Source of the DNA: Corallium rubrum
Taxonomy: Eukaryota; Cnidaria; Anthozoa; Scleralcyonacea; Coralliidae
Length of the DNA stretch: 64,000 nt
Direction of reading: 5' to 3'
Assembly (NCBI GenBank): GCA_964035015.1
Contig: OZ035997.1
Coordinates: 83,975,755 to 84,039,754 of the forward strand
A program made the translations under genes and the position numbers. Shown here one piece after another: positions 980 to 44,558 of the stretch. Position 1 is the first letter of the stretch; each line of letters begins with the position of its first letter. The notes beneath the pieces are model-generated. The model was not told where the DNA came from. It saw only the letters and a list, made by a program, of their open reading frames with translations, and did no database searches.

Positions 980-1026
980 AAAATAATAATAATAATAATA
1001 ATAACAATAACAATAACAATAACAAT

Positions 1027-3548: not shown

Positions 3549-3960
3549 CACAGGACGAAATAAGAAAATTAAGTTACCTTAAATGCCCATTAAAGCTAAC
3601 GTATTGAACCAATTAATGTGCCTTTAAGGTACACTTAAATTTATTAAATATAACTTTAAGTGACATTTAAGTGCTCATTTAAAGCCGATTTATGAACCAT
3701 TTATGGGTACCCTTAAATGCTCATTAATTCTCCGTAATTTTACATTTAGTTAAGCTTTAATTGACTACCTAAATGTAAAGGAAATAGAGATTTAAGTTCC
3801 CTTAAAGCTCATTAAAAACCATTAAATCTTTACAATTACTGATTTATGATACATATAACCCACCTTAAAGGTTCACTAAATCCACTTAAATGTATATTTA
3901 ATATATATTTAAGACTTGCGTAAATGTCAAGAAATACAGATATAAGTGAACTTTACTGAA
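3549..3960. repeat. Left terminal and subterminal repeat region, copy 1
   Basis: The terminal inverted repeat is followed by some 400 bp crowded with short words of the type CTTTAAG, TTAAATG, CATTTAAG and CCCATTAAAG in both orientations. CACTA-family elements typically bind their transposase at such clustered subterminal motifs, so these are likely protein-binding sites. No ORF is present. Confidence 0.65.
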
Positions 3961-4299
3961 TGATAAATTCCTAATTATTTGTTTTGGAATACTGTCGTCA
4001 TATTATTCTTTTTTTTTTTAAAAAAAGAAAAAATCTTTTAAATTTCTACTTTACGCGCCGGTGAGATATAGAGATTTCAGTTATTTGGATGCGCAAATGA
4101 AAACTTTCTGTAAATGATCAATACAACAACATTGATTAAAATCACCAGACCAAGTAGTTTTAAATGATATTTATTGAAATTAAAACATTCTACAACACAC
4201 ACTAACATTAATTCCATTGGCATTATATAAAATAAAGGAGAAGGAAATTCGAAAGTTTATGACATTTATGTGAACCCAAGCTGTACTTATAGTAGCTTA

Positions 4300-4578
4300 T
4301 TGCCATGTTACACGAGGCAACTTTCCTTGCAACTTGCAACACAATGGCGTTGTATTGCAAGTTGCAAGAAAGATTTCCTCGTGTGACACCCCATGTTTAC
4401 AACTAGTCTCGCAGCGAAAAATTGCGTTGCCAGTCGCAGAGAAAGTAGAAGCAGCTTCTACTTTTCGCAACGCTACGAGACAAGTTGCAGCGTGTGACAC
4501 CCCCACTGCAACTTGCAATATTTTTTCGACAAAAATTGCGTTGCAAGTTGCAAGGAAAATTGCCTAGTGGGACATGCC
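4300..4578. mobile_element. Nested Harbinger-like MITE, copy 1
   Basis: A 279-bp segment has long imperfect inverted termini (GCCATG...GGCAACTTTCC on the left, complementary to the right end), built from repeated TTGCAAGTTGCAA words. It is flanked on both sides by TTA (4297-4299 and 4579-4581), a 3-bp duplication of the type Harbinger elements make. The interior is also partly palindromic. Open frames on both strands here are by-products of the palindrome. It lies downstream of the 3' end of the coiled-coil gene. Confidence 0.55.
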
Positions 4579-4741
4579 TTAGTTATTCAAAGTAATTTTG
4601 AACTACTCTAAACTCACTCGATCGATCGTGCGTTGTACCAGCTGATTATATAAACCTTAGGACACCAAGCTATAGCCGAACAAGTCAACCAACTATAGGT
4701 ATTAATATTTATATTCAAAAGAGAGAAAATAAGTTAAAAAT

Positions 4742-4773
<32 letters not shown>

Positions 4774-4775
4774 GT

Positions 4776-5172
4776 TTATGCACGAATGAGTGCCCACTCA
4801 GGAAAATCATTTGGTTCTGGACGAGTTGATGGCTGACTAACATTTTCACGGCGTGGGAGAATTCTGCTTTTTGCCCTTTCAGTTAAATGTTTATTATATG
4901 CTGAATCCAGATCTTTTTTCGCCTTTTTGAAGCGTTCACTTTCCCAGGCAAGGCGCCTTATATTGTATGCCACAACTTTTGAATTTCCGTCACTGTTGGT
5001 CTCGGTGCAACTTTCCTCACTCGACATGGCGTCATCTACTAGAATTTCAGCAACTCTGCCTCGTTTTTTGACACTCCAATTAGCCTTCTCCAATGCAAGA
5101 GTTCTTCTGGTCAGTTTCTGGAAATAATTAAGATATCAAATGGTTAAAAAAGAATCAAAAGAAATGTGAGCA

Positions 5173-5226
<54 letters not shown>

Positions 5227-7416
5227 TGTATCAAAAAAAGGCTGAACCCTTAGAAAACAACCAATTGTAGTAGTTTGAGAGCCCTAAAAGCGCTGCAAAA
5301 AAATTAACTAAAGATATGTCGTTAATTAACAACAGCTAGCAGCTAACTCTTACCAATAGATAAACAAAAAATACCTACGGGCCTAGTGAATTCCTTCTTT
5401 CTATTTTAACCCTTTCACCACCAGACCTTCTCCCTTGACGAGTAAAATCGTATGGCGTTAGCAAGAGTAAAATAGTAATGGGCCACCACGGTGGTGAAAG
5501 GGTTAATTTGTTCCTTTTATTGAAAAATTAAAAGGTGTTCAAGTAATAATTATTTGTGAAAAGGTCCGATAATAATTTCTGATGTGACTTTTTAAGTGAG
5601 CATGCTCAATTACTATATTGAATAAATTATCATCCAAATTCTAAACATACATCTCTTTTCCGACAGTTCCTTCTACAGTTCTTTTTATGGGCCTGATACT
5701 TTCCCTCAATGGTTTTCTTTTCCTTTTCATACAAAGAGATGAAATATCTTTTCAGCACAGCTGTAAAGTAAGAAGAATTTGTCATTAATATTAATCATGG
5801 CATTTTATAACACTATAAATAAGCAGTTGTAGAAGCATTGTGGTATTATGAAACTGACTTTTATATGTACTGTACATAGCCTCTGTGCACATTTAGAAAA
5901 CCTGCCAGAATTTCTGGATGTGCACATGCAGGCTACATTGTATTTTATACGCAGTACTCTTTGCCATTAATTAAATCTTGGTTTTCCTTTCTGGGCAATA
6001 TAAACTATACAGTAGTCCAATACTTTGTTTTAAAACAAAACTTGATTCCCAAATTTCATTGATATTTTGTCACATTAGAAATACTCCTGTTTGAATTAAT
6101 TGACTAGCCACTTATATATCAAGGCTATTCACCCATACAAAAATCCAATAGGTCCGAATTCCTATTAGATTTTGATCATCAAATTCATACAGAAAACTAT
6201 AAGAGCTCCTATGATACGAATTTGTTCGCATAGGTTAGGAAATTTCTTATTGCACTTCCTAGAAGTATAAGAAATTAATTGCTATTAGATTTTCATATAG
6301 AAACTGTTTATGTTGAACATACAAATCTTGAAATTTCTGTTGGGCAGCTGCAATTACCCACTTACATCCATGGGCAACCATTGGTTTTCCTGTGGCTTTA
6401 AATGCAAAAGGTGACCACTGCCTGGAAAATTTCAAGAGCCAGCTGAGACAGTATAATTATATCACTTTAACACAGTACATACTTTCAATTTGCAACTGAG
6501 ACCATCCACCATTCTCCTGCCCTTGATATTGCTGTACTTCTCTAACAACACCCTCAATTATTTCCTTGTTGCTATTAGATAGAACACTATAAAAAAATAA
6601 ATAGGACAGATGATATTTTATTTCAAAATGATCATTAGAAAATGCCCTGACATCTTCTTTCTGATCTTCGCACTGCTAGCTGGTATCCAGGGTATCAAAA
6701 TGTATACCAAGCAAATTATATACAGTAAGTATTATAAGTATTATACCATGACTTGAGGGAAATTACAGTGATTAAATTTTCCCTCAGCTGTTTTACAAAT
6801 CTTCCCGAGGCTAAGGCAAAATTTAATCATTAATTTCCCTCAAGTCATGGTATGAGTTTGTAATACCATGATATTCATGCTTAATGTCCCTTGTGAGGAG
6901 TAAAATTGAATGAACATTTGATGTTCACTCATGCATGTGAATGAGGAGAAAATTAGAAATTTTCCCCAAAGCAGGGAAATTAGAGATTAAATTACCCAGT
7001 GAGAACAAAAGAAATCAAGTCAATCATGGTATTACCTTATAAATTACCAGGTGAGCTTCCAATGCCCCTTTATCATTTGACATTTTATCTATCTGAACTC
7101 TGTAAGTGGTCTATACTATAATAATTATTAAGAATTAAATATATTCAAATATACTCGATGTACCTTTCTGTGAGAGTGAAACCAAGGAAATCATCTCGTT
7201 GCAACAAAGTTTTGTAGACTTGTTTTGTAATTCTCTAGAAAAAATTAATATATAATAACTAGAGGATATTACATGATGTGATGATGGCACAAAGATATGA
7301 ATTCTATCTTCCAATGGTGAAAACAATATTTTTTTAAGTAAGTGTAGCAAATGAGTAAAATATAGAAAATAGCATATTTTCTAGCAAAACTTGGAATTTA
7401 CCGTAAAAGCTCTATC

Positions 7417-7448
<32 letters not shown>

Positions 7449-8012
7449 CCCGCCATCGGCCCTCACCCTGCCGTATGTAAATGCTCTTTCTCATTCTGAC
7501 GTATGTGATTGAGTTGATGACTTACGAAAGTATTGATTTACGCACGGTGCCCGTTTTAGTAGATCAGTACTTTCGTAACAAGTGTATCCATTCAATCGCA
7601 TACGTCAGGTTGAAAAAAAAATCGCGCGCGTGTAAACAGAACATGTATTAAATCTGAAGTGGCTTTATAAACTGTGTATTTCATTCATTAATCGAGGAAC
7701 ATCAACCGACAAACAAAAATATTTCAAAAATATAAAGTGAATTACCCGACATTGCGTAGGCACTCGCACTTCTTGCACTCTTCGTCGTTTTCTTTTGGTT
7801 TCGGGAGGAGATTGATTTGTCGCTTCACCCAGCTTTTGTTCCAAACTCGCAAATGCCTGACGATTTTTCTCATCTCTCTGCTTCAACTCTTCCCGCAGGA
7901 CACGATTCTCCTCATTCAACTTCTGATTTGTGCGCGCAATTTCCTCAAGGAGAATCAGCACTTGATCTTGACCTCCTTGCCTCTCTGTATCACGGGCATT
8001 CGTTGTAGCCAT
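4776..8012 (-). CDS. Transposon coiled-coil/basic accessory protein, 5 exons, copy 1
   Basis: Five exons join in frame to 297 residues: 7746-8012, 7164-7234, 6483-6586, 5651-5760 and 4776-5117. Every junction has GT/AG and matching phase. Exon 1 starts at an ATG and encodes a leucine- and glutamate-rich coiled coil (about residues 17-65), then a basic KRKRRR stretch (73-78) that looks like a nuclear signal. Exon 4 is lysine- and arginine-rich with paired cysteines (NCRRNC). Exon 5 has an acidic serine-rich patch (about EESCTETNSD), a basic helix and a proline-rich tail ending near FPEWALIRA. I do not recognise the family. A nuclear, DNA- or transposase-binding helper, analogous in position to the second protein of plant CACTA elements, is an inference from context. 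It is divergent from the kinase gene, with 391 bp between the two ATGs. Confidence 0.72.
5173..5222. repeat. (TA)n microsatellite in coiled-coil gene intron
   Basis: An AT dinucleotide run lies in the intron between exons 5 and 4. It differs in length from the same site in copy 2, one of the few differences between the copies. Confidence 0.85.
5410..5502. mobile_element. Nested piggyBac-like MITE, copy 1
   Basis: A 93-bp element has perfect 13-bp termini CCCTTTCACCACC and its complement, flanked on both sides by TTAA (5406-5409 and 5503-5506). TTAA target sites and CCC-starting ends are the signature of piggyBac elements. It has no coding capacity. It sits in an intron of the coiled-coil gene and is present at the same place in copy 2. 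Confidence 0.8.
6744..6852. repeat. Inverted repeat (fold-back) in coiled-coil gene intron, copy 1
   Basis: Arms of about 22 bp (TACCATGACTTGAGGGAAAT and complement) bracket a partly complementary middle (ATTAAATTTT / AAAATTTAAT). A second, shorter pair (TAATACCATGAT near 6861 and complement near 7023) continues the palindromic character to about 7036. This is probably a small non-autonomous element; no clear target duplication was seen. Confidence 0.5.
7417..7450. repeat. Poly-C / (CA)n tract, copy 1
   Basis: A homopolymer C run followed by CA dinucleotides, located in intron 1 of the coiled-coil gene. Its length differs from copy 2. Confidence 0.85.
7496..7608. repeat. Inverted repeat (113 bp) in intron 1, copy 1
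   Basis: The arms start CTGACGTATG and end with the complement CATACGTCAG. They extend imperfectly for ~40 bp to a TACGAAAGTA / TACTTTCGTA pair around a short centre. It is likely a small fold-back element. The ends carry a TGACGTA motif. The same structure is at 38791-38903 in copy 2. Confidence 0.55.
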
Positions 8013-8403
8013 TTAACGCAGTTGGTGCGAGATCAAAGTAAAAAAATTCGCTGTTCAACAACCTAACACCACGAAGCAAACCTGCAACTGGCTGTTGGAA
8101 AATGAGCGCAATTTTGAATAATTGGCGCACAATGACTTGATTTTATATATGGTCGGTACATAAGACCCCCTAAATTAGATATCGATATACCTATTAGCCG
8201 GTGGTGATGCCATTGACTCGCTTATTTTTAAAACCTTTTAGAATACCATAGCCTTTCAGAAAATATGTTTGTAACTTATGTAGCTATGCCAGTTACATAT
8301 GGAATCAGATAGGATTCTAAATCTTGCAATTTTATAAATATCCACTGAACAGATTTTATAGTAGAGGGCCAACTTCCCGCTCATCTGTTAATATCCGGTT
8401 AAA
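8013..8403. promoter_or_regulatory. Putative divergent promoter of coiled-coil and kinase genes, copy 1
   Basis: A 391-bp non-coding gap lies between the start codons of two head-to-head genes, so both 5' regions and promoters must lie in or near it unless non-coding exons exist. It contains a TTTTATATATGG stretch at about 8140. No further motif is certain; the call rests on gene geometry. Confidence 0.35.
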
Positions 8404-11400
8404 ATGCACTTTGAACCTTTTGTCATCTGGCTTTGGCGCCAGAAATCATTCGAAATGGAGGGAAAGAACTCGAAGATGTCTCACTGCAATGCTGTCGGGT
8501 TCGCTGTTAGTAAGTATGGTCAAGCTAATGCGCCTTTACCGTGCTTATTAGCAGATCGTGCGAGCGGTTTTTCGCTTGCTGACGATCGGCCATACCAAAA
8601 TCAGCATCTTGAAAGCCAAGCAGTTAACGTCGCCACCTCCACTTCTGGCAAGTCAACTAGAAGAAACATAGAATTGCTACGAAAGAAAAGGAGTCGCAGA
8701 AACAAACAGAAGCGTGAGTCGTTTAGAAATCTAAGTCGAAAGGAAAGAAGAACGAAATATTCTCGAGGAGCAAATCAAGCAATAATCAAAGGACTCGAAG
8801 ATAAATTGCACAAGGCAGAACAGGATTATGTTCAAGAGAAAAGGCTCTCGAAACTCTGTCGGACCAGTTACCAGAAGGAGAAAGATAGAAAACTCAAAAT
8901 CTTAGGTGAGATTTTTGTTGTGCATGTATTTCTGGATTTGTGCCCTTCAGTCTGAATATAAAACTTACATTTTGATTCATGCTTGATAGTAAAGCATTTA
9001 TAAATCAATATTTAAATGATACATGTATGAGTTTATTAGCCTTTAAAGGACTAAAAAATAATGGTTTATCTAGATTGTGATTAGCTTGTTCAGGTCTGTA
9101 CCGCCTGTTGAGGAACTAATTCTTCAGAGCATGCCTCGATGCCTACTGTATTAGCTGCCTTCTGAAGGAACAGTGCTATCCATGCTTTGAACAACTTAAC
9201 TTAAATTTTATTTGGAGAATTGAGCTATCAGATAAATGACTCCCTATTTGGAAGATAAAATATTAATTTGGATGTTCAAAACATGAGTTTATGCAAGGAT
9301 TTATCCACCAGATACTGTAGGAGTTAATTACTTGTGGAATTATGTATTGGAAATTCGTCAGGAGTTTACTGCAATTTTTAATAATAAGAATTCTTAGGGT
9401 GCAGGCATATTGGTGGTTTTCAATCAATCCCTTGAGAATTGCAGGGCAAAGGCCAAGTGGGCATGTTAATTGGAAGGTACAATAACATTGAATATAATAT
9501 TCTTTTGTATTAACCAACCAACATGCAACCCAGCAATACATATCAATAACATTGATGTAATTGCAATCTCATACTGCAATTACCCAGTTTCCTGAACAAA
9601 TCCAAAATGGGAAATACATGTAGAGGGAATAATTATATGGTTTTTGAATAAAATAGCCCAACACTAGGTTGGGTGGTAAATTATCAAGGAAAGTAGGATA
9701 TGCTGTAAAATGTAATACATGTACAGTAGTTATGAATATTTATTTTAAAACCAATGGGTTTTTATCCTCAGTACTCAACCTTGCCTTTCTCTTTTTTCAT
9801 GGCTATCCTAGACTGTACAGTACAGTATGTGCTTTTGGTCTTGAAACACTTCTTCCTTAGTATTACTGTACTAATCTTTAAAAAACTCTTGCTTTCAAAA
9901 TTTGTAGAGGTCCTAAAATTCTGGAACGTAAAAATTTAAAAGAAGAAAATGCAGGTGATTCAATAACCCTTGGAAAGGGAGCTTTTGGAAATTGTAAGAA
10001 GATGGTGTATAGAGGAATTATTGTCGCTGTAAAAGCATACCATGATTATGTTGATGTAAATTCTGTTCAGTTGGAAGCTGATGCTATCAGTCAGTTTGAT
10101 CACCCAGGTAATAAATATTTATAATACATTTATTTATTTCACAAATGCCCAATGTGTCTACAGTGTCTGATGAATTTTAACAATTATTAGATGAGTTGGA
10201 GCATATCAAGAATTATCAAAACTGAAAAGGATAACACAAACCAAGGTGTTAATATTCTTGATATCAGAGGAAACTCCAATTCTATCTCTATTCACACCTG
10301 CCGGCCATGTGCAGTGTCCAGATATTAAAATAATGCAACATAATATAAGATTATGTTATGTTACAGTACAGTAGATGCTAATGTACCCACCATACAGGAA
10401 CCAGTTGCAAAAATGCAATGTTAGACCTGACTGGAAACGCACACACAACCCTGTGATACTAGTGCAGTGCTCTGACCACTGAGAAAATGTATTAATACAA
10501 AGATTTTGTTGTGGTGAAAAATTTAAATATAGCATGGGAAAACATTTTTACCAAGGTACATTTTTATACTGGATAGTTCTGAAAAGAACTGTTCAAAAAA
10601 TTCATTTTTAACCTGATGTTGTCATAACGTTTCACATAAATATAGACTCAAGTTCTTATTTTAGTTAGCAGATATTGCATCTGAAGAGTATAGTAAAAAA
10701 AGAGCAGTCACAAAATACATAGTGTTTCTTTCTAGAATTAAATGTACGATACTATGCTCCAGATCTTTTATTCTTCTTCTGCTAAGTCTCAAACAGTTCT
10801 CTTCAGAACTATCTAGGATAAAAATTTACCATGGTTAATATGTTTTCCCATGTTATGTCTTAAAATGTGAAAATTCTTCACTCAAAATTTTCCTTCACCA
10901 TACATGTGAACACATACAGTGTAGTTTAATCAAATGAAATGTCAAATGTTACTTACAGTACATGTATACTGTAATAGCCATTTGATCTGTCACCCTCCAA
11001 CTTTTGTGGGATTGATTAATTGCAACCAATCATTAGATTTACTTACACAAAATAATTCTTATAGGATTACCATTGTTATTTGGAGTCTGTCTGAATGAGA
11101 AGCCCTACCTGATGGTAACACAATTTCATGGGATTAATGGCAATTGCATGACATTTCAAAATGCTATGCAATCATCTGTGGTTACATCATTGGCCAAGTG
11201 GATTAGACTATTCAGAAAAACTGGAGAAGCTTTGCTCTATGTCCATGAAAAAGGTTTTCTTCACAATGACATCAAAGGTGATAATATCTTGCTGTCAGCC
11301 CAAGGCTCTGGTTTAAATCCAGTCCTCATTGACTTTGGTAAGTGCCGTACAACAAAAAATCCTAAGAAGTATAACCTAACCCTAGATGAGCAATGGAAAT

Positions 11401-11636
11401 ATCGAAAATATCACTGTCATATTGCCCCAGAACTTATTAAAGGGACACATAGTCAGTCATTTAAGTCAGACATTTATGCGTATGGTCTCCTTCTATCTCA
11501 GACGTGTAAGTTAATTGCACAGTGTAAGCAATCTAGAATTCTTAACGACATACATATAGCTTGCATGCGCAGGAAAATTGAGGACAGGCCAACAATGCAT
11601 GAAATTGTACCCAAATTAAAATTTCACTCAGTCTAA
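8404..11636 (+). CDS. Transposon-encoded protein kinase, 3 exons, copy 1
   Basis: Exons 8404-8905, 9910-10107 and 11065-11636 give 423 residues. Residues 1-167 are very basic with a predicted coiled coil. The rest is a full protein-kinase domain: glycine loop GKGAFG (~189-194), VAVK lysine (~209), an LEADAI helix-C glutamate (~222), catalytic loop HNDIKGDNILL (~300-310, Asp ~302, with Asn in place of the usual HRD Arg), DFG (~323-325), IAPELIKG, SDIYAYGLLL and a terminal RPT arginine. All catalytic residues are present, so activity is likely; substrate unknown. The exon 1/exon 2 junction is odd. The natural TAG acceptor at 9907 would shift the frame in this copy. The overlapping AG two bases on (TAGAG) restores it. 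Copy 2 carries one more base in exon 1 and uses the first AG. The next ATG (8455) is an alternative start. Confidence 0.78.
10533..10852. repeat. Large fold-back element in kinase intron 2, copy 1
   Basis: Arms of about 62 bp begin CATGGGAAAACAT and end with the complement, at roughly 80% match. Weaker complementarity continues outward to about 10500 and 10895. It is probably a MITE of unidentified family, and it is present at 41845-42164 in copy 2. A shorter imperfect inverted repeat lies just upstream at about 10193-10281 (GAGTTGGAG...ACTCCAATTC). Confidence 0.6.
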
Positions 11637-11747
11637 GTTAACTCCCAATTTATTGATTAATCGATTTTTCTCCATTCCATTCCCTTTTTGGCAATCGATA
11701 ATTTTGAATACATCACATTATCCACAACAACAGTGCACAGCGACATA

Positions 11748-11993
11748 CAGTACTGCTCAGAAATAACCTAACAAAAACCGAGGTCAAACCTAGGTTTAAC
11801 CTCAGCTTAATCGTAATAATAATAACTCTGTTCAGTGTCAGTTAAACTGTCTCTAAATCACTATGAATCAAAATATGGACTGTTTTCTGTATTACTAGAT
11901 AATTTTATTGTGCTTTACTAAAGTTTATTAGCATTTCTGTCATTGTTTAACTTAACCTCAACCACACTGTTAGGTTATTTCTGAGCAGTACTG
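11748..11993. mobile_element. Nested mariner-like MITE, copy 1
   Basis: A 246-bp element has perfect 26-bp inverted termini starting CAGTACTGCTCAGAAATAAC, flanked by TA on both sides (11746-11747, 11994-11995). TA duplication and CAG-starting ends are typical of Tc1/mariner elements. The interior holds a second palindromic patch (CCTAGG). There is no ORF. It lies in the 3' flank of the kinase gene, before the first AATAAA (12109-12114). Confidence 0.8.
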
Positions 11994-12500
11994 TACCAAA
12001 ACAAAATGTAGACATTTTATATACCGTGTACTGTATATAATTTATTCCCTATTTTACATAATATTCTATAAATATGTTAATTTTTTTAGTTTTCATTCTT
12101 ATTGTGTAAATAAATTTCAATGGGAAAAATTAGTAAAATGGACAGTTAATCGATTATATCTATTTGAACCGATGGTTGCACCTCTGAGTTTACTCTCTAC
12201 TACAGTTCAATTTTTTTACTTGTCAAAGGAAGAGCCCTTGGTCATGCTAGACATTAATGGGAGAATTAGTTTTAATATAATACACACCATACAGTACAAT
12301 ATACTGTACCAGTAAAGTAACTGAAATGTTACCTGACCTACTGTAATATAAATATGTACAATTGGATTTTTGGTCAATATTGCATGTAGATGTACTTTAA
12401 AGTGAAAGGCAAAGTAGATTACAGCTACAGAACTGTATATGTTTTGAGGATTCATGTACCGGTACATTTTTGGCAGTTTCAAGTATGTACTTACTTGTTA

Positions 12501-12780
12501 CCAGCATATAATTTTAAAAAGCCCCATATTGAAAGAGACATGAGTTATTTCAAATTTTTTATTAAAACTAACGTTTCGTTTGCTAATCCTGCAACATCTT
12601 CAGAGTGAATAATTATTTACAAGGTTATCTCGACTTATATGCTAATATATAAGATAACCTTGTAAATAATTATTCACTCTGAAGATGTTGCAGGATTAGC
12701 AACGAAATGTTAGTTTTAATAAAAAATTTGAAATAACTCATGTCTCTTTCAATATGGGGCTTTTTAAAATTATATGCTGG
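12501..12780. repeat. 280-bp near-perfect inverted repeat between convergent genes, copy 1
   Basis: Arms of about 130 bp run from CCAGCATATAATTTT to its complement, with one mismatch and one indel noted near the middle and a loop of ~20 bp. It sits between the 3' ends of the kinase gene (plus) and the transposase gene (minus). Each arm carries a polyadenylation hexamer on the strand that reads out of it: AATAAA on plus at 12718-12723 and on minus at 12563-12558. It may be a MITE, a bidirectional 3'-end signal, or a source of hairpin RNA; the sequence does not decide. Confidence 0.7.
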
Positions 12781-13218
12781 GCTTTAATATTCCTGACAAG
12801 ATTACGCTTTCCGCCTGGTTCGTCTATTGCTACTTGTTACCAGTCTCCAAAATGAAAGTAATGAAATCTATACAATGGCAAAGCTTATACAAGTTTGTGT
12901 CACACTTTGTCAGCAAACCTTGCTTGATGTGACAAATTGTCCTCTTTCTCTTCTACCAAAGCGAGGTTTGATGTAAAAAAGAACGTGATGAACAGTAAAC
13001 TTGCATAGTGCCATACAAGTTCTAAACTTGTATGTACATGTAAGTTTTAAAGTATGTAGTCTTCACACAGTATAGTAATATAATCTTGACACAGTATTGT
13101 ATATTCAGCAAAGTATAGAGCTGTTACAGAGCATTTACTACAGTGCTGTACATACTGTACAGTGTAGCATGTTTGTCATTCTCATTTTTTGAGAAGATAC
13201 ATGTAGGAGAACAAATTG

Positions 13219-16200
13219 TCATAAGAAAGTTCTTCTAATGATAGGAGATACAGCTACACCATTACTGCCATTAAATTTTGATAGTTTTGCACTTGCATAT
13301 TTGGAGTGAATTCTCTGTACAGGAATAAATGATGAAGGGCCCCCTTCTTGACAATCAGATAACCATACCTGTACAGGACTGCCAATTATTGTACTATCTT
13401 CGTCTGGTTTGTACCATTTTACACAGGCAAAGGTGTGAGAAACATATTCTCCATCTAAGACTAGCACATGTGTAAAATAATAGTTGACTGTTCCTGGTGA
13501 CAGGAAAAATGATGTCTTATTGACAACCCCACAATTTGCTGGCCACGAGGCAAGAATTTTTGCAGATCGTATTCCTCGAGGTTCAATTTTTGAACCATAC
13601 ATTGTTGTTGCAATAGTTACTGACCCATACTTGTGGATTAACATGCTCATATCATTCTCTGATATTGAAGCTGCAGGATAGAGCATCTTGTAAACTTCAA
13701 AAAGAAGTTTGGCATCATCTGAATCCAAAGAGCTTAATTTGTAATTGGATGGAAGGAACACAGCTGATTGATTTTTCCACACAGCCCCAATAGGCATGGG
13801 TGATGCTATACTGAGGTTATGAACTGCCCAACGATCAGCCCAATTTGAATTGTGGATCCAATTTCTACTTCTATCTTCTGCAACATCAGTACACAGGTGA
13901 AGAAGGTCTTCTTTGAACAGGCTAGGAAATGACTTTTCTTCAAAGAAGTGTGACAACTTAAACTTTCTCATCAGCTGTAACTCGACTGATCTCTTGTTTG
14001 TGGGAATACTTCCTAATATTCCATTGAACCTCTCAAAGCTAAAACACCAAAAGCTTGCTACTGGTCCATGGTCCAACACAATGTCCTTTAGGTGACAGTG
14101 AAGGTGAATGTTAGGAGTAATTACCTCCTTTCCATACAATTCCTCAACTCGTTTGCCAAACTTGGTAAACAATCCATCTGCAATGTCCATATCTGCTCGT
14201 GATATGACTGGTTGGCAAATGTACCTGCATGCAAGTACAAATGTCTGCCAGCACTTGAAATGATCATCTTGTATAATATTCTTTAAACAATACAATGAAT
14301 AAGTCAGGGTCCAGTTTTTCCACTGTTCAGCAGTGTAACAACCAGAATTTGATGATATTTTGGCAGGGAGTCTGCCAATGTCACTTGGGACTTCCATTGT
14401 ACCAATACGCTGCTCGATATTCTGTACATCTTTCTTCGACAGGATACTATTATTCCACAAGTGAAACATCATTTTGGCTGTGCCAAGAAATAAATTATGC
14501 ATAGGATCAACTGTGAAGAAGCGGATAGCATCAAAATATGGAAGATCAAGTAGAATACTATAGTGTGTTATACCATTGTCCCTGCAAAATTTAACTTGTT
14601 TTGACTGTGTTTTTATCTTGTCTACTTTTTTGGACAATTGTCGATGCCACTGATTGGTTCTGGGCACCCAATTTTCTTTGTCAAAACCAGAGTAGTCCCT
14701 TTTGACTCCAAAACCTCCAGGAAACGCCTTCAGACAATGCAAGCAACCGTGAATTGCCGAATGACTTTTAAATCCACCCAACTTTCTAATTGCAGGAACA
14801 TCTGCTGAAACTGACATCACAGCTGCCCTAAATGTTATGGGAAACCGACATAGGGTAGATTCCAACTTCATGCCTTTCCACAAACACTGCAACTCTTCCA
14901 CAGCTGGTTTAAGAAATTCATTCAAGTTTTTAGGTTCTTTATTCATTGACGGTACAATGCCAATGACAATGACGTTCTCCCATTTGAACCTTTCAGCCCT
15001 TGGCAGATTCAATAAAACCAGATAGAATACTCCAACTGAATAATCTTTTCTTCGGTTCAAAGGCTGGAAGAAGTCAAAGTTTAGCATAAAACCATAATTC
15101 CGGGGTGCTTTCAAAAAATCCGTTCCATTAACTGTCAGGAATTCTTTCCAAATTTTTCCATCATAAAAGTCTGCCATTTCATCATTGTTCATTGACCTGT
15201 TTCTCCAGTGTTCACATTTTTCAGCAAAACCTTCTTTTTTAAGAAGTCTTTCCAAGGCATTAATTATGCTGTTGTAACAATAATATTTAATGGGATAGAA
15301 ACAACTCTTTCCATTCTTCAGCTGCACTTTATAGACAAGGGCTTCACCACATGTTACTTTTTTTCCTCGTGAGTAATGGAATCCAGAACATAATTTTCCA
15401 ACTTGTTTATTATTCACAATTGTCAGACACTCATTATACTTATACAGTTTACAACACTTTGGACAGACAACATACTTATCAAAGTCATCCCTGTCAAAGT
15501 GAAAAAACTGCCTAAGCATAAAAAGTGTTCCAGGAAAGACTGTTATAAGCTGGGTGAGTGTGTCATTTGGAATTGCCACCCCCAATACTTTCAACCAAGC
15601 ACCCAAAAAACGTAGGAGCCATGCCATTCCATTGTCACTAATATGGCATGAGAGTTGCCACATTAAAAGAAAATATACAAGCCAAAATACCAATGAATGT
15701 ACCATACCCTTTTGTTGTTTTCTTTGATGATCAGGAAGCGGTGAAGGTTCTCCATTCAAATCTCGTTGAAGATCACTTGGGAGAACATTATCCCAAACCT
15801 CTTCACTATCCTCATCATCGGTCGATGAGTCTGTCACATGACTTTCACATTCTGAACAGTCAGAGTCTTGTTCATTTTCAGTGCAACCAGTACCAAGGTT
15901 GTTGTCATGGTCAGGCAAATCCTAATTGCAAACAATGTTAAAATAAGTTGTAGTCTACACAAAACAGGAAAAAAGTACAGTGTATTTTTTCTCTATGTAC
16001 TGTACCAACTACTCAGTGTACTAAATGTTCAACCTATTCTACATCAATACAAACAATTACATGTACATGTAAATCCAATCTAGTGTAGAATAGAGACTAT
16101 AATTATTATAATATTATACTCTAATTATCTCCAGGTAATTTGCAGTTTCCTGAATTGCTCTCTGAGTCATATGCAATAATTCGCAACATGTTCTCAATTT

Positions 16201-16768
16201 ATTCTAAAATTTTGCAATGGCTGGATACATGTGAATTTCATGATGCATGTGAAATTGTGGCATGTGACTTTTTGTGTCACAAAATCATGGACATCAGTAC
16301 TGATTGAATCAGAAAAAGATGAAATAAGGGCTTTAATGCTGACTGAATAGCAAATATTTAAGCGATATGGCAATGCAATCCATAGGTGGTGAATACGATC
16401 ACAAAGTAAGTTATAATATATAATATAGTATTTTTTAAAACTAATCTTGACTGCAAATATTTCCATCCTGGTTGTGCAATATTAATGCTGCAATAAATCT
16501 ATACAGTACTCACCAAGTCTGAGTCTGGCATCCTGTCTGAATGAGAATGGGCATCTTCATTTACTGCGTTGTTGGAATCTATTAGAACGAAAAAGGTTAA
16601 ATGTTAAATTAATGTTATAATGTACAGTACACATACAAAGTTGTGGCAACTTCATTGTACTGTTGCAATTACACTGTTAGTACAATTCCAATTTCAATGT
16701 ACTGTATTGTACAGGTAAGGAGGTACAGTGTATTTCTATATTGGTTCTTATAATAATTTATGATTATA

Positions 16769-16799
<31 letters not shown>

Positions 16800-18247
16800 T
16801 TTCAGTAATTATAATGACTAGTTTGCCACTTGAAGAAAATATGAATTTTGAGACTATGCAGAGAATTTAGGATGGACAATTTTTTGTGTTTGATTGATTT
16901 TTCTATAAATTGACCTTCACACTTCACAATGTATAAATTTGCTCATTACGAGAGACTAATTCCTTTGTAGCCATGGCACATTAGGCATTGTTTACCACGA
17001 AGTAAAAAAAACAAAAAACGAACAAAACTCTCCAGTGAATCTGGTCAGAAAATTACTTCTTTTGTGATATACAACAGCCATTTGAAGTATTATTTTTACC
17101 TAGCAAAATAAAACGTACACTGTATGTAATTGTTGTATGTAATTGCCAATTTATTAAAAGCATATTTTGCCAACTGGAAAATTACTTTTTACAAATTTTT
17201 GACCAAGAAAATAATAAGAAAATTCCTTATACACAAAAAAATTGGCATTATTTCTATTCATTATACTCTGGAAAAGAATAGGTGCTCGACAAATCAAATG
17301 CCTTGTTATGACAAATCTGTTTTATAAAATAGAATGAAATATGCTAAAACTTTGGGTATTTGCATCTTACATCATTATTATTTGCGTCTTACATTATTGA
17401 TATCATGTTGGATGACTTAAAAGGTTTCTCTGCATTTACAATTAAAATTCCAACATGGCAAAAATATTATTATTTCTTGAATCTCTGGGGATTGGTTGCA
17501 CCGATAGAAATATAGAGAAAAAGAATCGAAAAATTATAAAATAGAGCTTCCAACAACCCTTGATACATGTATGCCCCCCTGCAATTGACCCCCCCCCCCC
17601 CCCCGATTAAGGGCAAACACAATAGAAGGCACAGTTTTCGGATGCTGCTGAAATAAGCGTCTAATGAGAACTTTCAAAGTCAAGTGTAAAACCCTCTTTA
17701 CTTTGCCCATACCCGCTACTCCGAGCAACGATGTATTAAAATTTATTTGATTTCGTTGTTCGGAGTGGCATCTACAGTGTGTCCTTTAAAGTAAGCATTT
17801 CAACGACCAAAGTTTGCGTAAACCAAATATTTTTAGTTTGCGTATTAATAATTTCTAAAACTATGCCTCTTGTTCTGCGCCTTGTATGGATGAGTAATGA
17901 GTTTTCCAGCGTCTTTATATTTTGTGGGGTCTTACTCTTATTTCGAAATATCCCATAAACGATTTTTACGAACGATGTCAATAGGCTGAATGAACATCGA
18001 TCGGTTGCGGTTTTTATCAAAAAAATTGGTCATACGTCTAAACGTAGGCTAGCACAAAATGTTCCATCTTACCTGAACTTGTAACACTTTCACTATCCAA
18101 TTCTTCACTATCCGATTCTTCCAAGACAAGCTGGGTATGCTGTCCTAGCAACTCACGTTGTCTCTTCCTTTCGTGTCTCTCTAACGTTGATCTTGAAACT
18201 AGTTGATCACAATGGCCACACATGTGAAGATCTTGTAATCCATCCAT
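13219..18247 (-). CDS. EnSpm/CACTA-type DDE transposase, 3 exons, copy 1
   Basis: Exons 18073-18247, 16514-16578 and 13219-15921 join in frame (phases 1 and 0, all GT/AG) to 980 residues. The start is the ATG at 18247, with an in-frame stop a few codons upstream. The N-terminus holds a CGHC...H finger-like motif (residues ~10-25), then an acidic serine-rich linker. A cysteine cluster (CPKCC...C, about residues 233-245) follows. The catalytic core has the family pattern: LNFDFFQPL (D ~363), SADVPAIRKLGGF (D ~454) with CLHCL just after, DPMHNLFLGTAKMMFHLW, and GPVASFWCFSFERFNGILG (E ~710). It should cut and rejoin DNA at the CACAGG ends in the nucleus. Intron 1 (1.5 kb) holds a (TA)n and a poly-C tract. 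Copy 2 differs by about five residues. Confidence 0.88.
16767..16802. repeat. (TA)n/(T)n microsatellite in transposase intron 1, copy 1
   Basis: AT dinucleotides followed by a T run; shorter in copy 2 (near 48105-48137). A poly-C run at about 17588-17604 lies in the same intron. Confidence 0.8.
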
Positions 18248-18599
18248 ATTGTAGTAGTATTTTCCCAAATTCTATTCAAACCAACCTTATAGTTATATAC
18301 GCAAATAGTCGCAACCACACAGATCGAAGCAGAGATCAAATCAGGTGTATTTTACTCACATTTCAAGGAATAAGATTGACAGGAAATTGTGGTTTGTTGT
18401 TGCTAGGTTATGAGTAAACAAAGATCAACAAATAGTTTAAACGTCCAGTTTTGTTGACTCAGTTCTCCATCGTAAGTTAAAATTACTTCTATAGACAATT
18501 TGACTCATAAAGCAGAAAAATAAGTCAACAAAGCCATTCTCTCTAGCGCGGCATCAATTAATTAACAACGGGATATTAAGTTATTCTTGATCTATTGTC

Positions 18600-18966
18600 A
18601 AGCCAGCTGTCAACATTTAAGTGAACTTACTAAACTCTTGAAAGTGTATTTAAAGGTACGCTGAGCTTTAATGGTAATTAAAGGTGCAACTAAAGCCATA
18701 GTAAAGGATTTCTCTAACTTTACTGAGATTTAAGTGTAACTTAATTACATTTAAAGTTCCACGTCAACTTTAATGACACTTTATGATATATATTAAAGGT
18801 CCTTAAAGTCTTTGGTCCTTATATCTTAATTAAATGTAACTTAAAATGACATTTTAACGTTTAATGGCTTTAAGGTAAACTTAAATACTCCTTAAAGTTA
18901 ATGGATTAACTTTAAGGAGATTTAAGTGCCCATTAAAGGTAATTAAATCTCAAATTTCGTCCTGTG
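18600..18966. repeat. Right terminal and subterminal repeat region, copy 1
   Basis: About 365 bp of the same TTTAAG / CATTTAA / CCCATTAAAG words as at the left end, finishing in the 13-bp terminal inverted repeat at 18954-18966. The word GCCCATTAAAG occurs near both ends. These are probably transposase-binding sites. The first exon of the transposase begins just inside. Confidence 0.65.
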
Positions 18967-34840: not shown

Positions 34841-35250
34841 CACAGGACGAAATAAGAAAATTAAGTTACCTTAAATGCCCATTAAAGCTAACGTATTGAA
34901 CCAATTAATGTGCCTTTAAGGTACACTTAAATTTATTAAATATAACTTTAAGTGACATTTAAGTGCTCATTTAAAGCCGATTTATGAACCATTTATGGGT
35001 ACCCTTAAATGCTCATTAATTCTCCGTAATTTTACATTTAGTTAAGCTTTAATTGACTACCTAAATGTAAAGGAAATAGAGATTTAAGTTCCCTTAAAGC
35101 TCATTAAAAACCATTAAATCTTTACAATTACTGATTTATGATACATATAACCCACCTTAAAGGTTCACTAAATCCACTTAAATGTATATTTAATATATAT
35201 TTAAGACTTGCGTAAATGTCAAGAAATACAGATATAAGTGAACTTTACTG
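34841..35250. repeat. Left terminal and subterminal repeat region, copy 2
   Basis: Essentially the same sequence as 3549-3960: terminal inverted repeat followed by clustered TTTAAG / TTAAATG words. Confidence 0.65.
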
Positions 35251-35590
35251 AATGATAAATTCCTAATTATTTGTTTTGGAATACTGTCGTCATATTATTC
35301 TTTTTTTTTTTAAAAAAGAAAAAATCTTTTAAATTTCTACTTTACGCGCCGGTGAGATATAGAGATTTCAGTTATTTGGATGCGCAAATGAAAACTTTCT
35401 GTAAATGATCAATACAACAACATTGATTAAAATCACCAGACCAAGTAGTTTTAAATGATATTTATTGAAATTAAAACATTCTACAACACACACTAACATT
35501 AATTCCATTGGCATTATATAAAATAAAGGAGAAGGAAATTCGAAAGTTTATGACATTTATGTGAACCCAAGCTGTACTTATAGTAGCTTA

Positions 35591-35869
35591 TTGCCATGTT
35601 ACACGAGGCAACTTTCCTTGCAACTTGCAACACAATGGCGTTGTATTGCAAGTTGCAAGAAAGATTTCCTCGTGTGACACCCCATGTTTACAACTAGTCT
35701 CGCAGCGAAAAATTGCGTTGCCAGTCGCAGAGAAAGTAGAAGCAGCTTCTACTTTTCGCAACGCTACGAGACAAGTTGCAGCGTGTGACACCCCCACTGC
35801 AACTTGCAATATTTTTTCGACAAAAATTGCGTTGCAAGTTGCAAGGAAAATTGCCTAGTGGGACATGCC
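35591..35869. mobile_element. Nested Harbinger-like MITE, copy 2
   Basis: Counterpart of 4300-4578, with TTA on both sides. Presence in both copies shows it inserted before the two copies diverged. Confidence 0.55.
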
Positions 35870-36032
35870 TTAGTTATTCAAAGTAATTTTGAACTACTCT
35901 AAACTCACTCGATCGATCGTGCGTTGTACCAGCTGATTATATAAACCTTAGGACACCAAGCTATAGCCGAACAAGTCAACCAACTATAGGTATTAATATT
36001 TATATTCAAAAGAGAGAAAATAAGTTAAAAAT

Positions 36033-36064
<32 letters not shown>

Positions 36065-36066
36065 GT

Positions 36067-36463
36067 TTATGCACGAATGAGTGCCCACTCAGGAAAATCA
36101 TTTGGTTCTGGACGAGTTGATGGCTGACTAACATTTTCACGGCGTGGGAGAATTCTGCTTTTTGCCCTTTCAGTTAAATGTTTATTATATGCTGAATCCA
36201 GATCTTTTTTCGCCTTTTTGAAGCGTTCACTTTCCCAGGCAAGGCGCCTTATATTGTATGCCACAACTTTTGAATTTCCGTCACTGTTGGTCTCGGTGCA
36301 ACTTTCCTCACTCGACATGGCGTCATCTACTAGAATTTCAGCAACTCTGCCTCGTTTTTTGACACTCCAATTAGCCTTCTCCAATGCAAGAGTTCTTCTG
36401 GTCAGTTTCTGGAAATAATTAAGATATCAAATGGTTAAAAAAGAATCAAAAGAAATGTGAGCA

Positions 36464-36517
<54 letters not shown>

Positions 36518-39315
36518 ATCAAAAAAAGGCTGAACCCTTAGAAAACAACCAATTGTAGTAGTTTGAGAGCCCTAAAAGCGCTGCAAAAAAATTAACTAAA
36601 GATATGTCGTTAATTAACAACAGCTAGCAGCTAACTCTTACCAATAGATAAACAAAAAATACCTACGGGCCTAGTGAATTCCTTCTTTCTATTTTAACCC
36701 TTTCACCACCAGACCTTCTCCCTTGACGAGTAAAATCGTATGGCGTTAGCAAGAGTAAAATAGTAATGGGCCACCACGGTGGTGAAAGGGTTAATTTGTT
36801 CCTTTTATTGAAAAATTAAAAGGTGTTCAAGTAATAATTATTTGTGAAAAGGTCCGATAATAATTTCTGATGTGACTTTTTAAGTGAGCATGCTCAATTA
36901 CTATATTGAATAAATTATCATCCAAATTCTAAACATACATCTCTTTTCCGACAGTTCCTTCTACAGTTCTTTTTATGGGCCTGATACTTTCCCTCAATGG
37001 TTTTCTTTTCCTTTTCATACAAAGAGATGAAATATCTTTTCAGCACAGCTGTAAAGTAAGAAGAATTTGTCATTAATATTAATCATGGCATTTTATAACA
37101 CTATAAATAAGCAGTTGTAGAAGCATTGTGGTATTATGAAACTGACTTTTATATGTACTGTACATAGCCTCTGTGCACATTTAGAAAACCTGCCAGAATT
37201 TCTGGATGTGCACATGCAGGCTACATTGTATTTTATACGCAGTACTCTTTGCCATTAATTAAATCTTGGTTTTCCTTTCTGGGCAATATAAACCTATACA
37301 GTAGTCCAATACTTTGTTTTAAAACAAAACTTGATTCCCAAATTTCATTGATATTTTGTCACATTAGAAATACTCCTGTTTGAATTAATTGACTAGCCAC
37401 TTATATATCAAGGCTATTCACCCATACAAAAATCCAATAGGTCCGAATTCCTATTAGATTTTGATCATCAAATTCATACAGAAAACTATAAGAGCTCCTA
37501 TGATACGAATTTGTTCGCATAGGTTAGGAAATTTCTTATTGCACTTCCTAGAAGTATAAGAAATTAATTGCTATTAGATTTTCATATAGAAACTGTTTAT
37601 GTTGAACATACAAATCTTGAAATTTCTGTTGGGCAGCTGCAATTACCCACTTACATCCATGGGCAACCATTGGTTTTCCTGTGGCTTTAAATGCAAAAGG
37701 TGACCACTGCCTGGAAAATTTCAAGAGCCAGCTGAGACAGTATAATTATATCACTTTAACACAGTACATACTTTCAATTTGCAACTGAGACCATCCACCA
37801 TTCTCCTGCCCTTGATATTGCTGTACTTCTCTAACAACACCCTCAATTATTTCCTTGTTGCTATTAGATAGAACACTATAAAAAAATAAATAGGACAGAT
37901 GATATTTTATTTCAAAATGATCATTAGAAAATGCCCTGACATCTTCTTTCTGATCTTCGCACTGCTAGCTGGTATCCAGGGTATCAAAATGTATACCAAG
38001 CAAATTATATACAGTAAGTATTATAAGTATTATACCATGACTTGAGGGAAATTACAGTGATTAAATTTCCCCTCAGCTGTTTTACAAATCTTCCCGAGGC
38101 TAAGGCAAAATTTAATCATTAATTTCCCTCAAGTCATGGTATGAGTTTGTAATACCATGATATTCATGCTTAATGTCCCTTGTGAGGAGTAAAATTGAAT
38201 GAACATTTGATGTTCACTCATGCATGTGAATGAGGAGAAAATTAGAAATTTTCCCCAAAGCAGGGAAATTAGAAATTAGAGATTAAATTACCCAGTGAGA
38301 ACAAAAGAAATCAAGTCAATCATGGTATTACCTTATAAATTACCAGGTGAGCTTCCAATGCCCCTAATATCATTTGACATTTTATCTATCTGAACTCTGT
38401 AAGTGGTCTATACTATAATAATTATTAAGAATTAAATATATTCAAATATACTCGATGTACCTTTCTGTGAGAGTGAAACCAAGGAAATCATCTCGTTGCA
38501 ACAAAGTTTTGTAGACTTGTTTTGTAATTCTCTAGAAAAAAATTAATATATAATAACTAGAGGATATTACATGATGTGATGATGGCACAAAGATATGAAT
38601 TCTATCTTCCAATGGTGAAAACAATATTTTTTTAAGTAAGTGTAGCAAATGAGTAAAATATAGAAAATAGCATATTTTCTAGCAAAACTTGGAATTTACC
38701 GTAAAAGCTCTATCTCCCCCCCCCCCCCCCACACACACACACACCCGCCATCGGCCCTCACCCTGCCGTATGTAAATGCTCTTTCTCATTCTGACGTATG
38801 TGATTGAGTTGATGACTTACGAAAGTATTGATTTACGCACGGTGCCCGTTTTAGTAGATCAGTACTTTCGTAACAAGTGTATCCATTCAATCGCATACGT
38901 CAGGTTGAAAAAAAATCGAAAAAATCGCGCGCGTGTAAACAGAACATGTATTAAATCTGAAGTGGCTTTATAAACTGTGTATTTCATTCATTAATCGAGG
39001 AACATCAACCGACAAACAAAAATATTTCAAAAATATAAAGTGAATTACCCGACATTGCGTAGGCACTCGCACTTCTTGCACTCTTCGTCGTTTTCTTTTG
39101 GTTTCGGGAGGAGATTGATTTGTCGCTTCACCCAGCTTTTGTTCCAAACTCGCAAATGCCTGACGATTTTTCTCATCTCTCTGCTTCAACTCTTCCCGCA
39201 GGACACGATTCTCCTCATTCAACTTCTGATTTGTGCGCGCAATTTCCTCAAGGAGAATCAGCACTTGATCTTGACCTCCTTGCCTCTCTGTATCACGGGC
39301 ATTCGTTGTAGCCAT
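36067..39315 (-). CDS. Transposon coiled-coil/basic accessory protein, 5 exons, copy 2
   Basis: Exons 39049-39315, 38461-38531, 37772-37875, 36939-37048 and 36067-36408 have the same lengths (267, 71, 104, 110 and 342 nt) and phases as in copy 1, giving 297 residues. Features are as in copy 1: N-terminal coiled coil, KRKRRR basic stretch, cysteine/arginine-rich exon 4, acidic then proline-rich C-terminus. Exons 1 and 5 encode identical residues in the two copies while introns carry indels, which fits a maintained coding sequence, though the divergence is too low for a firm test. Function unknown; likely nuclear helper of transposition. Confidence 0.72.
36698..36790. mobile_element. Nested piggyBac-like MITE, copy 2
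   Basis: Counterpart of 5410-5502: 93 bp, CCCTTTCACCACC ends, TTAA on both sides. Confidence 0.8.
38033..38141. repeat. Inverted repeat in coiled-coil gene intron, copy 2
   Basis: Counterpart of 6744-6852. Confidence 0.5.
38791..38903. repeat. Inverted repeat (113 bp) in intron 1, copy 2
   Basis: Counterpart of 7496-7608, same length. Confidence 0.55.
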
Positions 39316-39706
39316 TTAACGCAGTTGGTGCGAGATCAAAGTAAAAAAATTCGCTGTTCAACAACCTAACACCACGAAGCAAACCTGCAACTGGCTGTTG
39401 GAAAATGAGCGCAATTTTGAATAATTGGCGCGCAATGACTTGATTTTATATATGGTCGGTACATAAGACCCCCTAAATTAGATATCGATATACCTATTAG
39501 CCGGTGGTGATGCCATTGACTCGCTTATTTTTAAAACCTTTTAGAATACCATAGCCTTTCAGAAAATATGTTTGTAACTTATGTAGCTATGCCAGTTACA
39601 TATGGAATCAGATAGGATTCTAAATCTTGCAATTTTATAAATATCCACTGAACAGATTTTATAGTAGAGGGCCAACTTCCCGCTCATCTGTTAATATCCG
39701 GTTAAA
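39316..39706. promoter_or_regulatory. Putative divergent promoter, copy 2
   Basis: The 391-bp gap between the head-to-head coiled-coil and kinase start codons has the same length as in copy 1. Inferred from gene geometry only. Confidence 0.35.
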
Positions 39707-42700: not shown

Positions 42701-42948
42701 AGCAATGGAAATATCGAAAATATCACTGTCATATTGCCCCAGAACTTATTAAAGGGACACATAGTCAGTCATTTAAGTCAGATATTTATGCGTATGGTCT
42801 CCTTCTATCTCAGACGTGTAAGTTAATTGCACAGTGTAAGCAATCTAGAATTCTTAACGACATACATATAGCTTGCATGCGCAGGAAAATTGAGGACAGG
42901 CCAACAATGCATGAAATTGTACCCAAATTAAAATTTCACTCAGTCTAA
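39707..42948 (+). CDS. Transposon-encoded protein kinase, 3 exons, copy 2
   Basis: Exons 39707-40209, 41220-41419 and 42377-42948 join in frame to 424 residues with GT/AG at each junction. Exon 1 ends ATCTATAG and uses the first, TAG, acceptor of exon 2, so the junction reads KIYRGPKIL where copy 1 reads KILGPKIL. The kinase domain carries GKGAFG, VAVK, HNDIKGDNILL, DFG, IAPELIKG and SDIYAYGLLL, and exon 3 encodes the same residues as in copy 1. In exon 1 only F6L and a V-to-I change were seen. The N-terminal ~167 residues are highly basic with a coiled coil, suggesting nuclear location or nucleic-acid contact (inference). This copy is the better candidate for the functional form. Confidence 0.8.
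41845..42164. repeat. Large fold-back element in kinase intron 2, copy 2
   Basis: Counterpart of 10533-10852, same length. Confidence 0.6.
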
Positions 42949-43059
42949 GTTAACTCCCAATTTATTGATTAATCGATTTTTCTCCATTCCATTCCCTTTT
43001 TGGCAATCGATAATTTTGAATACATCACATTATCCACAACAACAGTGCACAGCGACATA

Positions 43060-43305
43060 CAGTACTGCTCAGAAATAACCTAACAAAAACCGAGGTCAAA
43101 CCTAGGTTTAACCTCAGCTTAATCGTAATAATAATAACTCTGTTCAGTGTCAGTTAAACTGTCTCTAAATCACTATGAATCAAAATATGGACTGTTTTCT
43201 GTATTACTAGATAATTTTATTGTGCTTTACTAAAGTTTATTAGCATTTCTGTCATTGTTTAACTTAACCTCAACCACACTGTTAGGTTATTTCTGAGCAG
43301 TACTG
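43060..43305. mobile_element. Nested mariner-like MITE, copy 2
   Basis: Counterpart of 11748-11993: 246 bp, CAGTACTGC ends, TA on both sides. Confidence 0.8.
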
Positions 43306-43818
43306 TACCAAAACAAAATGTAGACATTTTATATACAGTGTACTGTATATAATTTATTCCCTATTTTACATAATATTCTATAAATATGTTAATTTTTTTA
43401 GTTTTCATTCTTATTGTGTAAATAAATTTCAATGGGAAAAATTAGTAAAATGGACAGTTAATCGATTATATCTATTTGAACCGATGGTTGCACCTCTGAG
43501 TTTACTCTCTACTACAGTTCAATTTTTTTACTTGTCAAAGGAAGAGCCCTTGGTCATGCTAGACATTAATGGGAGAATTAGTTTTAATATAATACACACC
43601 ATACAGTACAATATACTGTACCAGTAAAGTAACTGAAATGTTACCTGACCTACTGTAATATAAATATGTACAATTGGATTTTTGGTCAATATTGCATGTA
43701 GATGTACTTTAAAGTGAAAGGCAAAGTAGATTACAGCTACAGAACTGTATATGTATATGTTTTGAGGATTCATGTACCGGTACATTTTTGGCAGTTTCAA
43801 GTATGTACTTACTTGTTA

Positions 43819-44097
43819 CCAGCATATAATTTTAAAAAGCCCCATATTGAAAGAGACATGAGTTATTTCAAATTTTTTATTAAAACTAACGTTTCGTTGC
43901 TAATCCTGCAACATCTTCAGAGTGAATAATTATTTACAAGGTTATCTCGACTTATATGCTAATATATAAGATAACCTTGTAAATAATTATTCACTCTGAA
44001 GATGTTGCAGGATTAGCAACGAAATGTTAGTTTTAATAAAAAATTTGAAATAACTCATGTCTCTTTCAATATGGGGCTTTTTAAAATTATATGCTGG
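43819..44097. repeat. 279-bp near-perfect inverted repeat between convergent genes, copy 2
   Basis: Counterpart of 12501-12780. Here the arm indel seen in copy 1 is absent, so the palindrome is slightly more perfect. It lies between the 3' ends of the kinase and transposase genes. Confidence 0.7.
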
Positions 44098-44558
44098 GCT
44101 TTAATATTCCTGACAAGATTACGCTTTCCGCCTGGTTCGTCTATTGCTACTTGTTACCAGTCTCCAAAATGAAAGTAATGAAATCTATACAATGGCAAAG
44201 CTTATACAAGTTTGTGTCACACTTTGTCAGCAAACCTTGCTTGATGTGACAAATTGTCCTCTTTCTCTTCTACCAAAGCGAGGTTTGATGTAAAAAAGAA
44301 TGTGATGAACAGTAAACTTGCATAGTGCCATACAAGTTCTAAACTTGTATGTAAGTTTTAAACTAGTTTCAGCTTGCTGACAATGACAAAAGTATGTAGT
44401 CTTCACACAGTATAGTAATATAATCTTGACACAGTATTGTATATTCAGCAAAGTATAGAGCTGTTACAGAGCATTTACTACAGTGCTGTACATACTGTAC
44501 AGTGTAGCATGTTTGTCATTCTCATTTTTTGAGAAGATACATGTAGGAGAACAAATTG

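Follow-up and report, generated by a model that had tools for sequence, protein, structure and literature searches.

Why does a DNA transposon of a coral carry a complete protein kinase gene, and does this gene serve the element or only travel with it? The question is raised by a stretch of the Corallium rubrum genome of 64,000 nucleotides (the window). An earlier note on this DNA had placed a three-exon kinase gene between two transposon genes inside the terminal repeats of a CACTA/EnSpm-like element. This arrangement was confirmed: the element is present twice at 99.4% identity, and helper (H, minus strand), kinase (K, plus strand) and transposase (T, minus strand) follow one another in constant order in both copies. 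Both copies start with CACAGGACGAAAT and finish with the inverse of this start. The features of the window elements are as follows.

3549..18966, no strand assigned: CACTA/EnSpm element, copy 1, 15,418 bp, ends CACAGGACGAAAT...ATTTCGTCCTGTG
4776..8012, minus strand: helper gene H, copy 1, multi-exon (first exon 7746-8012, last about 4779-5120, by eye)
8455..8905, plus strand: kinase exon 1, copy 1, basic N-terminus; 3' end one base shorter than in copy 2
9908..10107, plus strand: kinase exon 2, copy 1, glycine loop and VAVK; acceptor 9908, second possible acceptor 2 bp on (9910)
11065..11636, plus strand: kinase exon 3, copy 1, HNDIK, DFGK, HIAPE, C-lobe and stop
13219..15921, minus strand: transposase main exon, copy 1, 900 aa, Transposase_21 (PF02992) at 6.5e-14
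16514..16578, minus strand: transposase exon 2, copy 1, predicted, junctions by eye
18073..18247, minus strand: transposase exon 1, copy 1, predicted, with a CxxC...H zinc-finger-like start by eye
34841..50302, no strand assigned: CACTA/EnSpm element, copy 2, 15,462 bp
39758..40209, plus strand: kinase exon 1, copy 2
41220..41419, plus strand: kinase exon 2, copy 2
42377..42948, plus strand: kinase exon 3, copy 2
44559..47261, minus strand: transposase main exon, copy 2

The three plus-strand exons encode a full kinase domain, recognised by Pfam as Pkinase (1.6e-24) and PK_Tyr_Ser-Thr (2e-23). After the basic N-terminal exon the protein contains LGKGAFGN, VAVK, HNDIKGDN, DFGK, HIAPE and SDIYAYG, and all the sequence marks of a eukaryotic protein kinase are found in it (glycine loop, VAVK lysine, HxDxKxxN, DFG, APE, C-lobe Asp/Arg). 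The motif set and the basic N-terminus described earlier are thereby confirmed, the N-terminal 'coiled coil' being a judgement by eye. The HxDxKxxN catalytic loop marks Ser/Thr kinases. By its HNDIKGDN loop the window kinase is predicted to be of the Ser/Thr type, despite the fact that the nearest solved sequences among the best 60 of 985 matches are the Abl and Btk kinases (E 7e-13 to about 1e-11). An origin of the kinase frames as chance open reading frames is ruled out by the Pfam match at 1.6e-24 and by conservation across families. Scanning of viral contigs with exon 3 for a viral source gave 10 pattern matches and no relative.

Two details of the earlier gene model had to be corrected. 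Translation probably starts not at 8404 but at 8455 (MEG...), since the relatives C82a, C1:7091 and C20a keep MEG, MAG or MAVEG at this place. Furthermore, the claim that the gene is kept open in both copies is true of the separate exons, but at the exon 1 junction copy 1 is one base shorter than copy 2. Copy 2 exons join in frame via the first acceptor and give 407 aa, whereas in copy 1 the first acceptor shifts the frame, and the 423-aa protein requires the acceptor 2 bp further on. The shorter exon 1 donor is shared by copy 1 and C51, the longer one by copy 2, C39 and C1:936, and C186 is disrupted at the exon 1 junction. As copy 1 is a base shorter there, only the copy 2 kinase is plainly intact.

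The transposase residues D283, D374, CxxC 393-396, H606-x3-H610 and E630, placed by motif and not by structure, are those of a Tnp2 (Transposase_21) DDE transposase with the C(2)C and H(3-4)H motifs. The pattern D, D, C(2)C, H(3-4)H, E is given for transposases of the EnSpm/CMC group in the accessible part of PMC12730594. In seven transposases of five families the first 75 residues of the main exon include 7-13 Ser and 20-22 Asp plus Glu, counted without a background control. The helper, its exons joined by eye, has no Pfam family match; about 440 bp separate its start codon from that of the kinase, and the two genes are transcribed divergently. In each copy the stretch from kinase to transposase contains a hairpin-like inverted repeat (12501-12780 and 43819-44097), with 129-bp arms and 21 bp spacing in copy 2.

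The ends of the element were followed through the genome of 474 Mb (312 contigs). A 13-bp end search gave 40 matches versus 3 for a reversed-pattern control, and these formed 13 exact pairs no more than 40 kb apart. CAC-type terminal inverted repeats, with CACAGGACGAAAT at both ends, are thus present in 13 paired elements. Nine of them contain H, K and T, two only H and K, one only T (C1:74336670-74345962), and one of 187 bp contains none of the three; in total, 11 of the 13 exactly paired elements carry the kinase. The 187-bp stretch (C1:26532708-26532894) carries CACAGGACGAAAT at both ends and is perhaps a miniature non-coding derivative. Searching for the window family itself, with the terminal 17 bp as pattern and A or T allowed at two places, gave 13 ends, which make up six complete pairs and a single unpaired end. 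Three of the six copies with both ends are enlarged to 17.7-37.5 kb, and all six have kinase exon 3.

Target duplications of 3 bp were found at five of the eight copies examined (C39 CTG, C51 TAT, C1:936 CAC, C8 AAG, C1:59 AGG), and were absent at C186, copy 1 and copy 2. The C8 family has the same 13-bp ends, 3-bp duplications and, as read by eye, the same exon layout, its transposase being 51% identical to that of the window element. Near-identical copies with target duplications point indirectly to movement by excision and insertion. The right flank of copy 1 and the left flank of copy 2 both read AAT within the same 123-bp satellite, and the window pair therefore looks like one insertion split by rearrangement or misassembly. 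A long array of this 123-bp satellite fills positions 18967-34840 between the copies. On the other side of copy 1, short tandem arrays of varying sequence (982-3548; such as gtaaca, accgca, gtatac, ggtagt, gggata) adjoin its left end over about 2.5 kb. Elsewhere in the window a C2H2 zinc-finger-like coding run (53457-54116) and a non-LTR retrotransposon reverse transcriptase-like sequence with a FADDAAV motif (about 61400-64000) were noticed by eye.

At the level of the genome, at least 54 matches to the transposase, 83 to kinase exon 3 and 57 to the helper were obtained. Only part of the transposase candidates was scored (51 of 270 and 61 of 294), and locus counts are for this reason lower bounds. 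The adjacency analysis used 37 of 83 kinase, 41 of 54 transposase (fragments of one gene being dropped) and 28 of 57 helper rows. Among the 20 best kinase matches, 16 are followed, 0.9-2.6 kb beyond the end of the kinase, by an opposite-strand CACTA transposase, and at C176 the transposase is 23 kb away in the same convergent arrangement; the adjacency test found no transposase at C1:7334, C52 and C130. The helper lies upstream on the opposite strand in 19 of the 20, and all 20 have a helper or transposase of the window type within 40 kb. The 16 loci belong to nine families, namely the window family (6 copies), C82a, C20a, C1:7091, C8/C1:59, C50/C68, C270, C233 and C20b. The co-occurrence check proposed in the earlier note thus had a positive outcome, homologues being accompanied by the same transposase type and CACAGGACGAAAT ends at many loci.

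None of 17 further kinase rows has a transposase within 2.6 kb. In this set, C82:809987 shows the same arrangement with the transposase at 8.7 kb, C20:3686504 has the helper in the usual place, and the intronless kinase C1:75809453 lies 15.8 kb from a transposase of a second CACTA clade on the same strand. Viewed from the transposase (at least 41 loci, against all 54 and all 83 rows), a kinase match is found within 2.6 kb at 16 loci and within 40 kb at 3, while the remaining 22 have none within 40 kb. Fragments account for some of these 22, and a separate clade of CACTA elements for many. A tree of 21 transposase loci, which left out C277, C8:323, C12b and other window-family copies, resolves a separate, well-supported group of C82:219, C1:757, C12, C22, C23, C153, C47, C41 and C270b. 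The flanks of 1.5 kb examined in this group contained no match to the kinase, and C1:757 is its sole locus with a kinase match within 40 kb. At C82:219 helper and transposase stand head to head by eye, without a kinase between them. The kinase is thus a feature of part of the CACTA group, and individual copies can lose it.

Within that part, kinase and transposase have diversified together. Distances between transposases and between kinase exons 3 are correlated with a Mantel r of 0.977 (11 elements) and of 0.966 with one element per family (9), the permutation p being at its floor of 5e-5. The two trees agree in the main groups, internal support in the kinase tree being low in places (39-66%). 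In pairwise codon fits of kinase exon 3, the nine between-family pairs gave omega values of 0.212 (window-C82a, partial), 0.087, 0.031, 0.143, 0.066, 0.054, 0.103, 0.043 and 0.061, and omega = 1 was rejected in all nine, with twice the log-likelihood gain at 35-144. The rows of C82a, C1:7091 and C270a stem from damaged genes, of which only part was used or the stops were masked. The fitted pairs have dS of 1 or more, and distant pairs can be read only qualitatively because several dS values are saturated. Six transposase pairs gave omega of 0.146, 0.083, 0.101, 0.079, 0.037 and 0.005. Between families, purifying selection acts on exon 3 of the kinase.

The picture is different among the six recent copies of the window family. 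Measured against the kinase of copy 1, each of the remaining five shows 1-5 codons with an amino-acid change and 1-2 with a silent one (C186 being compared over 1169 of 1221 bases), and gap positions number 1 in copy 2, 2 in C39 (one being the exon 2 frameshift), 4 in C1:936 and 3 in C186. By plain count amino-acid changes outnumber silent ones, and no constraint is visible on this short time scale. Without a deficit of amino-acid changes, these copies look as if they are decaying after insertion. The selection check suggested earlier was answered in two ways: constraint between families (exon 3 omega 0.03-0.21) but no silent excess among recent copies.

The kinase thus has a fixed place and orientation within the inverted ends, has diversified with the transposase, and retains a conserved exon 3 between families. 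The reading preferred here, with a probability of roughly 0.55, is that these elements form a three-gene CACTA/EnSpm lineage, the third gene being a resident Ser/Thr-type kinase that acts as a regulator of transposition. Such a kinase would act in trans, and would probably be co-produced with the helper from their shared upstream region. Its basic N-terminus could provide for nuclear entry. The predicted enzyme may then phosphorylate the transposase or helper of the element, or a host factor limiting or licensing transposition, with the acidic, serine-containing N-terminal stretch of the transposase as a candidate substrate. Transposition would in this way be timed or dosed. Phosphorylation of the Mos1 transposase by the host kinase PKA blocks transposition and nuclear import (PMC3902898, part of the text), which indicates that phospho-regulation of a transposon is workable in principle.

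Some elements combine an open transposase with a damaged kinase. C82a has an open transposase main exon of 915 aa and a frameshifted kinase with altered glycine and catalytic loops; C20b (C20:1474318) has an open frame of 901 aa and a kinase in which the catalytic Asp is replaced (HCHIK); C39 has an open transposase of 899 aa and the kinase frameshift in exon 2. Judging from these three, not every copy has a strict need of the kinase in cis. Copies without a working kinase may be served by one acting in trans. CACTA transposition as a whole does not require the kinase either.

Alternatively, the kinase may act on the host and not on the transposase. It would then be retained because, by changing host control of chromatin, DNA damage or the cell cycle, it lets the element evade silencing or be copied at a favourable time. 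Kinase and transposase are conserved to a similar degree, yet one CACTA clade has no kinase nearby, which fits an accessory benefit of this kind, and fungal DNA transposons carry TET/JBP genes likely aiding escape from methylation silencing (PMC12730594, in part). However, there is no recognised host target or chromatin-binding domain, and the co-diversification observed is with the transposase. This explanation is considered unlikely, although it stands closest to the preferred one.

Clearly less probable is that the kinase represents a modular lineage living in mobile elements, which has moved between unrelated element types and confers a generic benefit. It draws on intronless relatives of the window kinase. 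Three identical copies of 355 aa (C56:4533179, C1:61552177 and C1:91323996) have the layout and motifs of the window kinase, and the intronless kinase near the second-clade transposase, C1:75809453, can be added to them. An array of about 350-bp repeats is present at both loci read in part (C1:61552177 and C56:4533179, two of the three). Beyond the array at C56 there is a multi-exon gene bearing a zinc finger and transposase-like by eye. Such a gene was seen, however, at C56 only, with two of three loci read; Pfam recognised the kinase in this stretch but no transposase, the zinc-finger hits being below cut-offs; and the shared left boundary of the intronless-kinase stretch reads TTATGTGAAGTAC, which is not of the CACTA form. 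Within the window's own clade, moreover, the kinase tree tracks the transposase tree, which argues against free exchange. The intronless loci suggest that the kinase family lives in more than one transposon type.

Least probable is the view, also raised in the earlier note, of a host kinase picked up by one element and carried passively: plant CACTA elements do carry captured gene fragments (PMC8978399; PMC13317346, both in part), some kinase copies are decayed and the recent ones have no silent excess, but nine families keep the kinase in place at dS of 1 or more with low omega, all 20 best matches have the window-type helper or transposase within 40 kb, and the gene shows neither a recent host parent nor fragmentary form nor lack of conservation across families, so that co-occurrence and purifying selection both speak against it.

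The elements appear to bring their own signalling enzyme and not an accidental cargo, because the kinase is inherited and conserved along with the transposase. A wider proposal, put forward tentatively and at somewhat less than even odds, is that the kinase is a standing, selected part of the CACTA transposition machinery, an element-encoded signalling enzyme, and that, with related kinases in an apparent second type of transposon, this genome may have a broader 'transposon kinome'. Some kinase-like genes counted as host genes in animal annotations might be explained in this way. If the regulatory reading is true, a direct test of whether elements time their own movement becomes possible.

Among known systems, EnSpm elements have CAC...GTG ends, 3-bp target duplications and the C(2)C and H(3-4)H motifs (PMC12730594, in part), the second protein of Spm is TNPA, and SmTRC1 of Schistosoma has CCC ends and 2-bp duplications (PMC1636069, available sections). 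The window element shares a Transposase_21-type transposase with this CACTA/EnSpm superfamily (maize En/Spm; SmTRC1) and differs in adding a third conserved gene, the protein kinase; the word 'kinase' is absent from the main text of the SmTRC1 paper (PMC1636069). Large EnSpm families of the red alga Chondrus, with 4-5 ORFs, are alike in being enlarged (16-20 kb) and in having extra ORFs (PMC6431247, in part). Pack-CACTA and other gene-capturing plant CACTA elements also contain non-transposase coding sequence (PMC13317346, PMC8978399, as far as their accessible text goes). What is described of them, however, is captured gene fragments or sequences, whereas the window kinase is a complete gene conserved across families.

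Two fungal cases come nearer. In DNA transposons with TET/JBP, including EnSpm families, an enzyme unneeded for strand transfer is likewise kept in many families, but this is an oxygenase that passes between superfamilies, while the window kinase follows its own transposase (PMC12730594, partial text). No CACTA element with a protein kinase was met in the literature searched, which covered titles and beginnings of abstracts among the matches listed, and an earlier description elsewhere, for example in Repbase, is possible. The nearest precedent in that literature is fungal IS3EU, in which an alpha-kinase gene lies opposite to the transposase in an order shared across families (PMC12730594, in part). 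IS3EU belongs to another superfamily, and the window gene is a classical kinase (PF00069), with no Pfam match to the alpha-kinase domain at E up to 0.1. The known phospho-regulation of a cut-and-paste transposon depends on a host kinase, PKA acting on Mos1 (PMC3902898, in part), while an element with its own conserved kinase would make a self-contained regulated system.
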